From Actinorhabdospora filicis (GTDB lineage: Bacteria; Actinomycetota; Actinomycetes; Mycobacteriales; Micromonosporaceae), in NCBI RefSeq assembly GCF_030269765.1, contig NZ_BSTX01000001.1:1867370-1931369 (forward strand): DNA of 64,000 nucleotides, given 5' to 3'. The notes under the pieces are model-generated. The model was not told the origin of the DNA and made no database searches. It saw nothing but the letters and a program-made list of their open reading frames with translations. A program made the translations under genes and the position numbers. Each line of letters begins with the position of its first letter. The first letter of the stretch is position 1. Below are positions 1-3,519 of the stretch, one piece after another.

Positions 1-664
1 AGGAGGCCGAGGCGTTGTCCGCGTTGATGCCGGGTTCACCCGAGGCCGCCGACGAGGAGGCCGCCGCCGAGTCCGCGGGAGCGTCCGAAGTGGACGGCCC
101 CGGGCTGGAGGGCGACGCGGGGTCCTTCGGGCCGGGCTCGGTGGTGGCGGTCTGGCCGGGCTTGGCCGGGTCGCCGCCGGGCTTGGGGTCCTCGGTCTTG
201 GGCGGCGGCTTGGGCGCGGGCTGCTCGGCCGGGGGCGCGATGGACGGCGGTTTCCCGGCGCCGTAGGCCCAGCCCTCGACGTCGCCGGGCTTGGGGTTGC
301 GGGTGCCGGGGCCCTTGGGGCTGTAGGTCCACGAGCCGCCGGGCGAGCCGTACCAGTAGGACCAGTACTTGTTGGTGGGCGGCGGGTCCGGGCAGTCGCC
401 GGGTGTGCTGTTGATGCTGCACACCAGCTTGGTGGAGTTCTGCCGGTAGCCGAAACCGGCACTCGACAAAGCCGCCAGGCCACTGCCCGGATCGCCGTTG
501 GCGCAGGAGGTCTGCGCGCCGCCACCGTTGTCCACGACGACCGTCACGCCGCCGCCTTCACGGCAGGACGCGGCCTGCGCGGCCGGGGCGGCGATCACCG
601 TCCCGGCTGTGGCGCACAGGGCCAGGGCGGCCAGGGCCGCCGACAGTCGCCGTGGGGAGGTCAC
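1..664 (-). CDS. secreted DUF4430 (transcobalamin beta-domain-like) protein, 3' end outside window
   Basis: A GTG start at 664 overlaps the stop of the preceding gene as GTGA, so the two are translationally coupled. The frame stays open to base 1, so the C-terminus is missing. Residues 1-31 form a Sec signal peptide ending AAPAAQA. Residues 32-130 contain a DUF4430-like domain: TVVVDNGGG, several cysteines, and the aromatic KYWSYWYG...W.YS...GDVEGW signature. A long Pro/Lys-rich then Ser/Ala-rich linker follows, typical of a surface stalk. DUF4430 is the family of the cobalamin-binding beta domain of intrinsic factor and transcobalamin. The upstream partner and the cobalamin riboswitch suggest a role in extracellular B12 capture; that role is inferred. 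Confidence 0.85.
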   Translation of the reverse strand, partial: MTSPRRLSAALAALALCATAGTVIAAPAAQAASCREGGGVTVVVDNGGGAQTSCANGDPGSGLAALSSAGFGYRQNSTKLVCSINSTPGDCPDPPPTNKYWSYWYGSPGGSWTYSPKGPGTRNPKPGDVEGWAYGAGKPPSIAPPAEQPAPKPPPKTEDPKPGGDPAKPGQTATTEPGPKDPASPSSPGPSTSDAPADSAAASSSAASGEPGINADNASAS

Positions 665-1788
665 CGGCGGGCCCGCTTCCGGTTCACCAGGACGAGGACG
701 GCGCCCGCGCCGACGAGCGCGGCACCGGCGGCGATGGCCACGCCGAGGGACGTGCCGGTCTTCGCGAGGGGGTCCTTCGCCACGTTGGTGGGCTTGGTGG
801 TGGGGGTGGTCGGGGTGGGCTTGGTGGAGCAGTCGAGGCCGACGACGGCGGTGGTGTCGTCCTTGGCGTTCAGCTCGATGAGGCCCTCACCGGTGAGGCC
901 GAGGACGCCCTGGGCGGTGGCCATCGCGGTCATGTCGTCCACGGCCGGCTCGTTCCAGCCGATGGCGCCGCGCTCGCTCTCCTTGGCGGAGCAGCCGACC
1001 TGGAGGGTGAGCAGGAACTTGGCGGCCTTGTCGGCGGACGCGGTGCGCCCGGCCGAGCGCAGGAGCTGCCCGGCCATGCCGGTGGTGTTGGCGTTTTCGA
1101 CGTTGGAGTAGGAGTCGGCGAAGCCGCCGTCGGCCTTCTGGGCCTTCTCCACGTAGTCGAGGGACTTGGTGGCCGCCGGGGACTTCTGCGCGACGAGCGC
1201 GGTGGCGACGAGGGTGGTGGCGTCGATGTCGGAGAAGCAGTTCGCGCCGCCCCAGTCCCAGCCGAAGCCGCCGTCGGGGCACTGGCCGGTGGCCAGGGCG
1301 GTGACGGTCGCGGCGGGCGCGCCGCCGGTGGTCTTGCCGAGGGCGAGGACGGCCAGGCCCTGGTCGTTGGGGGTGCCGGCGCCGGTGAGCTTGCCGTCCT
1401 GGGCGATCAGGCCGCGCAGGGTCTGCTCCAGGTCGGTGCCGCCGAAGGCGTGGACGTCGCCGCCGACGGCTTCCACGGCGAGCATGACCTTGCCGAGCGC
1501 GCCGGGCTTGTAGGCGCCGGTCTTGGCGTCCTTGACGTAGGCCTCCAGCGCGGTCTTGGAGTCGAAGGCGCCGACGAGGGCCTTCGCCTTGTCCGAGGCC
1601 ACGTCGGCCGAGACCAGCGCGAGGGCGTGGTCGAGGCCGAAGCTGGGGATGGCGGGCTGCTGGGTCGACAGCCAGGACGCGGCGGCCTTGGCGGCGGGCA
1701 CCGGCTCGGCGGCCTGCGCGGGCGCGGCCAGGAAGGCGGTGGTGATCGCGCCCGTGACGGCGGCCACGGCGAGGGAACGGCGGAGCAT
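661..1788 (-). CDS. LAXTG-anchored prenyltransferase/squalene-oxidase-repeat (alpha/alpha barrel) surface protein
   Basis: A 375-residue protein. It has a signal peptide (residues 1-26, ending PAQA) and then alpha/alpha-barrel repeats of the terpenoid cyclase/prenyltransferase type, with repeating motifs such as QCPDGGFGW and KADGGFADS. A Thr/Pro linker, LAKTG, a hydrophobic helix and a basic NRKRARR tail follow, which is the layout of a class E sortase substrate. The fold is the one used by the N-terminal domain of transcobalamin and intrinsic factor. No DXDD cyclase motif is visible, so an enzymatic terpene role is unlikely. The gene lies directly behind a cobalamin riboswitch and overlaps the DUF4430 gene by 4 bp, so I infer a B12-binding surface component. 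Confidence 0.85.
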   Translation of the reverse strand: MLRRSLAVAAVTGAITTAFLAAPAQAAEPVPAAKAAASWLSTQQPAIPSFGLDHALALVSADVASDKAKALVGAFDSKTALEAYVKDAKTGAYKPGALGKVMLAVEAVGGDVHAFGGTDLEQTLRGLIAQDGKLTGAGTPNDQGLAVLALGKTTGGAPAATVTALATGQCPDGGFGWDWGGANCFSDIDATTLVATALVAQKSPAATKSLDYVEKAQKADGGFADSYSNVENANTTGMAGQLLRSAGRTASADKAAKFLLTLQVGCSAKESERGAIGWNEPAVDDMTAMATAQGVLGLTGEGLIELNAKDDTTAVVGLDCSTKPTPTTPTTKPTNVAKDPLAKTGTSLGVAIAAGAALVGAGAVLVLVNRKRARR

Positions 1789-1837
1789 GCGAGGGGCCTT
1801 TCCGCGGCCTGGGCACAGAAAGGACCGCGTGAGGCCC

Positions 1838-1885
1838 GTTCCGTCCCGCTGCCGCGACGGGAGGAGTGAACGAGTGGGACGGAAC
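1838..1885 (-). promoter_or_regulatory. perfect 10-bp hairpin adjoining the cobalamin riboswitch (candidate expression platform)
   Basis: GTTCCGTCCC at 1838-1847 pairs perfectly with GGGACGGAAC at 1876-1885, leaving a 28-nt loop. On the minus strand it begins at the last base of riboswitch helix P1 and ends about 50 nt before the ATG at 1788. No U-tract follows. It could compete with P1 or control access to the leader; which of these it does is inference. Confidence 0.6.
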
Positions 1886-1966
1886 GCGGGTACTCGGGCT
1901 CGCGCCGCCGAATGGGACGCACACCGTTGCGGGTCAGCGCCGGAATCGCACCGGACTTCCCCCGCG
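1885..1966 (-). promoter_or_regulatory. cobalamin (B12) riboswitch aptamer
   Basis: Read on the minus strand, the core matches the B12-box family: GGGGAAGUCCGGUGCGAUUCC, then GACCCGCAACGGU, and near the 3' end GAGCCCGAGUACCC. Helix P1 is closed by CGCGGG (1966-1961) and CCCGCG (1890-1885). The aptamer is compact, about 82 nt, because the variable arms are short. It controls the minus-strand surface-protein genes starting at 1788, presumably turning them off when B12 is plentiful. Confidence 0.9.
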
Positions 1967-2124: not shown

Positions 2125-3519
2125 ATGAGCGACGAGGACGTACGCATCGAGCACGACACCATGGGCGAGGTCGCGGTCCCGGCGTGGGCCGCCTGGCGGG
2201 CCCAGACGCAGCGCGCGGTGGAGAACTTCCCCATCTCCGGGCAGCGTCTCGACCACGCGCTCATCGCCGCGCTGGCCCGGGTGAAGTCGGCCGCGGCCGC
2301 GGTCAACGCCGAGCTGGGCGTCCTGGACGCCGACATGGCCGCCGCGATCGGCGCCGCCGCCGACGAGGTCGCCGAGGGCACCTACGACGAGCACTTCCCG
2401 GTGGACGTGTTCCAGACCGGTTCGGGCACCTCCAGCAACATGAACGCCAATGAGGTCATCGCGACCCTGGCCACGGCCCGCCTGGGACGTCCGGTGCACC
2501 CGAACGACCACGTGAACGCCTCGCAGTCCAGCAATGACGTGTTCCCCTCGGCGATGCACCTGGCCGCCGTGGACACCACCGTGCACAAGCTGATCCCGGG
2601 GCTGACGACGCTGGCGAGCGCGCTGGAGGCGAAGTCGGCGGAGTGGTCGCGGACGGTCAAGTCCGGCCGCACGCACTTGATGGACGCCACCCCGGTCACC
2701 CTCGGGCAGGAGTTCTCCGGCTACGCCGCCCAGGTGCGCTACGGCGTCGAGCGCGTCCGGAGCAGCCTGCCGCGCGTGGCGGAGCTGGCGCTGGGCGGCA
2801 CGGCCGTCGGGACGGGTGTGAACACGCCGCCCGGGTTCGCCGCGGCCACGATCGCGCTGATCGCCTCCCGCACGGGATTGCCGGTGACCGAGGCCCGCAA
2901 CCACTTCGAGGCGCAGGGCGCGCGGGACGCGCTGGTGGAGCTGTCGGGGCAGTTGCGCACGATCGCCGTCGGGCTGTTCAAGATCGCCAATGACGTCCGC
3001 TGGATGGGTTCCGGCCCGCGCACCGGGCTGTCCGAGCTGCGGATCCCCGATCTCCAGCCGGGTTCGAGCATCATGCCGGGCAAGGTGAACCCGGTGCTGG
3101 CCGAGGCCGTCCGGCAGGTCGCCGCGCAGGTCGTCGGCAATGACGCGGCGATCGCCTTCGCGGGCGCGGCCGGGGATTTCGAGCTGAACGTGATGCTGCC
3201 GGTGATCGCGAAGAACCTGCTGGAGTCGGTGAACCTGCTGGCGAACGTGTCGGCGGTCTTCGCCGAGCGCTGCGTCGCCGGGCTGGAGGCGAACGAGGAG
3301 CGGCTGCGCGAGTACGCCGAGGGTTCCCCGTCGATCGTGACGCCGCTGAACCGGTACCTGGGTTATGAGGAGGCGGCGGCGATCGCCAAGCAGGCTCTGA
3401 AGGAGCGCCGGACGATCCGCGAGGTGGTGCTGGAGCGCGGGCACGTGGCCGAGGGGCGGCTGACGGAGGCCGAGCTGGACGAGGCCCTGGACGTGCTGCG
3501 GATGACCGGGACGGTCTAG
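2125..3519 (+). CDS. fumC: class II fumarate hydratase
   Basis: A 464-residue soluble enzyme that interconverts fumarate and L-malate in the TCA cycle. The family signature [11 protein letters not shown] lies at residues 313-323. Upstream are [13 protein letters not shown] and [11 protein letters not shown], which form the active site with the [11 protein letters not shown] segment. Length is normal for the class. The ATG at 2125 starts the conserved N-terminus ([12 protein letters not shown]); a longer in-frame opening exists but would run through riboswitch sequence on the other strand. The gene stands alone, divergent from the B12 module and converging on the flavin reductase gene with a 1-nt gap. 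Confidence 0.95.

Follow-up and report, generated by a model that had tools for sequence, protein, structure and literature searches.

The nearest bacterial relatives of the animal vitamin B12 (cobalamin) carriers were described in 2007 by Burroughs et al. (PMC1796856), who, in the parts of the paper drawn on here, reported transcobalamin-type domains that are joined to toroids, on either side, in secreted or anchored proteins encoded in operons with CbiO and CbiQ, proposed that these proteins scavenge B12, and placed the clade in low-GC Gram-positives, planctomycetes, and euryarchaea. A 2014 paper (PMC4350170), in its consulted sections, locates the DUF4430 domain at the C-terminus of transcobalamin-type proteins. 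Here, we analyzed a 64,000-nt stretch of the genome of Actinorhabdospora filicis, a soil-type actinobacterium (contig NZ_BSTX01000001.1; G000:C1:1867370-1931369; "the window" below means this whole stretch) from a 7.2-Mb assembly of 19 contigs with 99% completeness. At the start of the window, two minus-strand genes encode a predicted alpha/alpha-toroid (barrel) protein and a predicted beta-grasp protein. We consider it likely, at a probability of roughly 85%, that these genes open a five-gene B12 (corrinoid) scavenging operon, in which a surface pair equivalent to a transcobalamin split into two polypeptides would feed an energy-coupling factor (ECF) importer. The initial annotation had proposed an extracellular B12-scavenging pair, and the predicted folds, the riboswitch, and the importer genes support that reading, B12 binding being the part that we infer.

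Like the transcobalamin-like SLBB clade of 2007, the products of the window system are predicted to be secreted or wall anchored, combine a toroid with a transcobalamin-type beta-grasp domain, and stand in an operon with an ABC ATPase and a CbiQ-type gene. The window system differs from that clade, as far as the cited text describes it, in its occurrence in Actinomycetota, in its two separate overlapping genes (the earlier proteins being toroid-SLBB fusions), in its riboswitch and S-component gene, and in the existence of a second, unanchored pair. With its two genes, the actinobacterial form is a new variant of the B12 scavenger predicted in 2007 for other lineages; given that prediction, the novelty implied by the title of the initial annotation is reduced. 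Our search of open-licence PubMed Central found no paper on the actinobacterial genes, the two-gene form, or the soluble pair, and subscription papers may say more. The Bacteroides BtuG lipoproteins (PMC6143338, PMC10404256) likewise capture B12 at the surface ahead of an importer, but they belong to a Gram-negative outer-membrane system, unlike the one described here. With animal transcobalamin, intrinsic factor, and haptocorrin, the window pair shares both folds and their order (barrel gene then beta gene, as alpha-domain then beta-domain), at 12–18% sequence identity in the structural matches; it differs in consisting of two polypeptides rather than a linker-joined single chain and in carrying wall and membrane anchors. 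BtuG is not known to contain a toroid or a DUF4430 domain.

The gene order can be read directly from the DNA. The barrel gene ends in a GTGA overlap with the next gene, as the initial annotation had stated, and the beta-protein starts with the GTG at 664 within it. Past base 1 of the window (locus L015) follow genes for EcfT, for a protein containing two ABC_tran stretches, and for an ECF S-component, i.e., the parts of an ECF transporter, so a transporter of a kind that the initial annotation suggested looking for there is present. EcfT matches PF02361 (CbiQ) at 35.3 bits (cut-off, 25), and the operon S-component scores 28.6 of 30.7 bits with PF12822, 2.1 bits under the cut-off, while a paralogous S-component passes PF07155 (29.2 versus 26.7 bits). 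Because all four junctions overlap (in order, GTGA, GTGAGTAA, GTGA, and GTGA), the five genes very likely form a single translationally coupled operon.

The specific evidence for a cobalamin carrier rests on the beta-domain, with the barrel compatible, because the beta-domain matches cobalamin carriers, whereas the barrel matches toroids generally. The complete beta-protein gene (L015:9270-10034) encodes 254 aa and stops 101 bases past base 1 of the window; its domain is followed by a proline-rich linker and a C-terminal hydrophobic membrane anchor. AlphaFold2 modeled the domain with a pLDDT of 89.6 and a pTM of 0.85 from a 57-row alignment of the window and related loci, placing a helix at residues 35–41 and then strands at 46–48 and 54–57. 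In a Foldseek search of the PDB, the nine best rows were all transcobalamin or haptocorrin (E 0.024–0.14; probability 0.60–0.99), with no row reaching E 0.001 and a wide gap to the tenth row (probability 0.16). With VIA-align, 14 of the 15 best rows were transcobalamin, haptocorrin, or intrinsic factor (Z 8.9–10.0), the remaining one being the Ruminococcus gnavus protein 3u7z, and the next unrelated row had a Z of 6.2. The resemblance to the transcobalamin domains that the initial annotation claimed is thus strong and specific for this half of the pair.

At the sequence level, the profiles of the beta-domain found no PDB relative, and neither the in-window part of the beta-protein nor its domain matched any Pfam family at E ≤ 1; the full-length protein gave only weak matches in its C-terminal tail (best E 0.053). 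It scored about 36.2–36.8 of 85 bits with NF040672 (SCO2322_fam; E 7e-9), which identifies it by sequence as a distant homolog of that family, far under the curated cut-off. PF14478 (DUF4430) matched 3 of the 24 beta-domains in one alignment (A2) and 0 of the 57 in another (A4). The equivalent gene of a genome from the same taxonomic order (L099:8598-8882) is the one that passes its cut-off, at 29.3 versus 23.8 bits. The DUF4430 assignment of the initial annotation therefore holds by the modeled fold and through relatives, but not by any Pfam match of the protein's own domain, and the link between the beta-domain and transcobalamin is a structural one from the model, plus one relative above the DUF4430 cut-off.

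The barrel protein carries the anchor that had been claimed for it, with a Sec-type N-terminus and a C-terminal LAKTG, a hydrophobic stretch, and RKRARR. An LPxTG-like motif, a hydrophobic stretch, and a positive tail are the features of a sortase substrate; the protein scores 20.2 bits with LPXTG_anchor (TIGR01167; cut-off, 15.9), and two sortase matches above cut-off were found in the same genome. It is by sequence a distant homolog of the SCO2321 family (NF053823; E 6.8e-16), at 58.1 of 300 bits and hence also far under the curated cut-off. The AlphaFold2 model (pLDDT 94.9; pTM 0.91; alignment of 54 rows from the window and related loci) superposes on intrinsic factor 2pmv with a Z of 21.1 (rmsd 2.8; 230 residues aligned). 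In PDB searches with barrel sequence profiles, toroids of terpene cyclases, complement, and farnesyltransferase come first, and transcobalamin was absent from the matches listed (the best 60 of 87, and 54 in a second search). At E ≤ 1, PF01122 (Eukaryotic cobalamin-binding protein) was matched by 19 of the 54 aligned barrels, with 6.1e-5 as the best E-value; PF13243 and PF00432 matched more of them (47 and 46, respectively). As modeled, the barrel is thus one toroid among many, a generic fold compatible with the transcobalamin alpha-domain, and the resemblance claimed by the initial annotation is to be read in this weaker sense for this half.

A minus-strand cobalamin riboswitch, which the initial annotation had placed at 1885–1966, lies inside a match to RF00174 (Table 1) that was obtained by cmscan with relaxed filters only and covers all 189 of 189 model positions at 31.2 bits (gathering score, 31.5). 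Its E-value was 2.8e-6 in a 451-base search and 1.0e-5 across the whole 7.2-Mb genome, where six cobalamin matches were found, this site among them, four of the six above the cut-off. A default Rfam scan of the full window at the gathering threshold listed no riboswitch.

Table 1. Coordinates of the operon start within the window
Feature	Start	End	Strand	Basis or remark
Predicted secreted transcobalamin-beta-domain-like (DUF4430-like) protein	1	664	minus	ORF; continues past window base 1
Beta-grasp domain as modeled	233	583	minus	Segment aligned and modeled
Predicted secreted alpha/alpha-toroid (barrel) protein, 375 aa	661	1788	minus	ORF; signal peptide, LAKTG sorting signal, membrane anchor
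Toroid domain as modeled	853	1710	minus	Segment aligned and modeled
GTGA stop/start overlap (barrel TGA, beta-protein GTG)	661	664	minus	Sequence
Cobalamin riboswitch aptamer RF00174 (operon leader)	1868	2010	minus	cmscan, relaxed filters

The same arrangement recurs in other Actinomycetota. Barrel matches were found in 21 of 61 genomes (own genome counted); across the phylum, 32 of 198 genomes had SCO2322-type domains, and in 8 of these the family cut-off was exceeded. Searching 121 loci (42 + 79, some contigs counted twice) with profiles built here, we found 122 pairs of a barrel gene followed by a beta gene, and 84 of these were followed by ecfT within 1.5 kb. Since the loci were picked by their barrel or beta-domain, the neighbors and not the seed gene count as evidence. 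The barrel-beta pairing is more than chance because the arrangement recurs in many genomes; the full order of barrel, beta, EcfT, A, and S recurs as well, and SCO2322 members above the cut-off precede the same ECF genes. In 40 loci, a gathering-level cobalamin riboswitch was found no more than 600 nt upstream of 22 of the 44 lead genes with upstream room, and 22 of the 25 gathering-level riboswitches in those loci sit within this distance of a lead gene.

As for the host, neither CobS nor CobN had a match in its genome (99% completeness; enzymes of other routes were not searched), and seven B12-binding-domain matches were found. For these two reasons, the organism probably uses B12 yet cannot complete its synthesis, judging from its gene content. 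Across genomes, CobS was missing in 8 of the 21 barrel-bearing genomes compared with 5 of the 40 others (Fisher p = 0.045 two-sided, 0.025 one-sided), in a comparison where species are not independent, some genomes are incomplete, and 1 of the 21 (G006) has a weak partial match. The correlation is weak, CobS loss being only mildly commoner with the barrel.

We propose that low B12 would lead the riboswitch to release the operon, which plentiful B12 would keep off. The operon would yield a toroid fixed to the wall by sortase and a membrane-anchored beta-grasp protein, i.e., a split transcobalamin, between whose parts B12 would be clamped; from there it would be passed to the S-component and pumped in by the ECF module (EcfT with a fused EcfA-A'). 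That the two proteins meet, that their ligand is B12, and that the cargo is handed to the S-component are the steps that we infer. In the portions of the literature cited, the alpha- and beta-domains of human transcobalamin, expressed apart, assemble upon addition of cobalamin (PMC5599065), and a study of rat transcobalamin states that cobalamin is required for the domains of such carriers to associate (PMC11107200).

Several observations weigh against this proposal. The riboswitch match in the window falls 0.3 bits under the RF00174 gathering cut-off, and the other 22 of the 44 lead genes have no gathering-level riboswitch within 600 nt upstream, including those of L080-L082, from three genomes of the same taxonomic class that are probably Streptomyces because the SCO2322 cut-off is passed. 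The gene order is not universal, a barrel lying behind ecfS in 13 of the 14 loci from named Streptomyces, and a simple riboswitch core motif occurred in 0 of these 14 loci in the stretch examined. The window beta-domain has no PF14478 match at E ≤ 1, and the window barrel has no PF01122 match. The barrel fold is unspecific, as terpene cyclases outscore intrinsic factor (drimenyl diphosphate synthase being the top toroid, with a Z of 24.0), and its nearest PDB relatives by sequence are squalene-hopene cyclase and drimenyl diphosphate cyclase. Among solved chains, the best sequence match of the S-component has an E-value no lower than 0.24, so kinship with the CbrT-type ECF B12 transporter (PMC5997447), with which the system shares an ECF module for the same proposed cargo, is not established. 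Finally, 13 of the 21 barrel-bearing genomes keep CobS; therefore, the pair is not tied to an inability to make B12.

Among the alternatives, it is unlikely, in our estimate, that the pair takes up corrinoids in general (cobinamide and other cobamides) instead of being specific for B12. No sequence feature specifies the lower ligand, and the human transcobalamin beta-domain has also been crystallized with cobinamide, according to the sections of PMC5599065 consulted. No point speaks directly against this alternative; the apparent lack of CobS suggests that the host could not finish incomplete corrinoids in the usual way. Cobalt importers, too, are controlled by cobalamin riboswitches, and EcfT falls into a Pfam family (CbiQ) named for cobalt transport, as would be expected if the operon imported cobalt or another metal and the surface pair bound that ligand instead of B12. 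We regard this as very improbable: the family matches of the S-components are to vitamin-type ECF S proteins and not to CbiM, the beta-domain matches cobalamin carriers above every other fold, and a host in which CobN and CobS were not found (anaerobic-route cobaltochelatases were not searched) would have little need of cobalt for making corrin. An enzymatic role for the barrel, as a secreted toroid of the terpene-cyclase or glycosidase kind with the beta-protein as its partner, might be suggested by its closest PDB sequences but is hardly credible given its export and wall-anchor signals, the absence of the class II terpene cyclase motif DxDD from its sequence on inspection (3 of the 54 aligned barrels contain this string), and the occurrence of the thioester motif CGEQ in 0 of 54.

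Besides the scavenging operon of the window, the genome carries a second locus (L016; C4:341-358 kb). On one strand lie a second barrel gene and genes for a beta-protein, EcfT, a double ABC ATPase, and an S-component; ahead of this anchored copy lies a partial match to the riboswitch model, its 25.4 bits falling short of the cut-off. On the divergent strand, a riboswitch of 31.8 bits (above the cut-off) leads a barrel gene and a beta-protein gene with no importer genes. This anchorless pair (L016:8545-10223; G000:C4, about 349.5–351.2 kb) is predicted to be a soluble, secreted split transcobalamin. Classed by C-terminal tail, with pairs called free when the barrel tail is at most 25 aa and the beta tail at most 6 aa, 53 of the 122 pairs were anchored on both proteins, and 50 of these were followed by ecfT; 35 were free on both proteins, 33 of them without ecfT; and 34 were mixed or ambiguous. 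By a simple hydrophobicity rule, signal-peptide-like N-termini occur on all 35 barrels and all 35 beta-proteins of the free class and on 49 of the 53 barrels and all 53 beta-proteins of the anchored class. In 29 of the 35 loci where a free pair occurs, a pair with an anchored barrel is present too. What is new here is this predicted class of soluble, secreted, anchorless pairs (35 of the 122, one of them in this genome) beside the anchored, importer-linked ones.

A maximum-likelihood tree built from 81 barrels separates the free and anchored classes by one branch (support, 98/95), subject to long-branch warnings, while the beta-domain tree, which has few columns and is too short to resolve the question, needs three changes and not one for the soluble class. 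The nearest relative from another locus belongs to the same class for 79 of the 81 barrels and 79 of the 81 beta-domains. This, together with the branch in the barrel tree, suggests one old duplication into soluble and surface branches. Within each class, barrel distances are strongly correlated with beta distances (r = 0.88, a value reached in 0 of 1,000 permutations), which shared ancestry alone could explain. A two-stage B12 relay may be put forward tentatively: the soluble pair (a "cobalophore") would catch B12 at a distance, B12 would glue its halves together, and the anchored pair would take over the cargo and feed the ECF importer. In this genome, on the same tentative footing, the window operon would be one anchored stage, and L016 on C4 would hold another anchored stage with its importer and a divergent soluble stage.

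If true, the scavenging reading would offer a function for SCO2321 and SCO2322, NCBI families named only after Streptomyces genes, and would reveal a possible route of B12 capture outside the actinobacterial membrane. A natural two-chain transcobalamin would be a system for studying cobalamin-induced assembly, and the division into soluble and anchored pairs, if it functions in the way proposed, would parallel haemophore relays with a vitamin as cargo and have a bearing on competition for B12 in soil.

Other riboswitch sites and neighbors were also observed. The operon riboswitch sits in an intergenic region shared with a divergent plus-strand gene (about 2125–3519 of the window) whose product can be read as a fumarate hydratase of class II. 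A further cobalamin riboswitch of 75.3 bits (G000:C1:478757-478897) stands ahead of two genes (L017:7030-10346) that read as the large and small subunits of ribonucleotide reductase. In another locus, a solitary anchorless beta-domain gene (L101:7981-8679, minus strand) has its own cobalamin riboswitch of 43.2 bits.

In only two of the loci examined are both domains encoded in one frame. The first natural fusion (L087:4569-6881) encodes barrel then beta, i.e., the transcobalamin order, in a 771-aa frame with a 37.1-bit riboswitch upstream; further repeats, which look like cell-wall-binding repeats, follow the beta-domain, and a second beta-protein gene and ECF genes lie downstream. The second (L129:4095-7052), from Dactylosporangium siamense, encodes beta-barrel-barrel in a 986-aa frame. 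Barrel architecture varies as well. In L080, L081, L082, and L094, the C-terminal part of the profile (about 105–291) precedes the N-terminal part (about 2–118), i.e., the toroid appears circularly permuted in the three probable Streptomyces genomes, which pass the SCO2322 cut-off, and in one other lineage. The barrels of the 13 Streptomyces loci with the gene behind ecfS (L153, L161, L162, L167, L176, L178, L183, L185, and L190-L194) are unpermuted, do not precede a beta gene, and mostly end in an LAxTG-type tail. Tandem barrels in one frame were found in L140, L145, L165, L166, L172, L174, L179, and L195, six of these eight loci belonging to Amycolatopsis.

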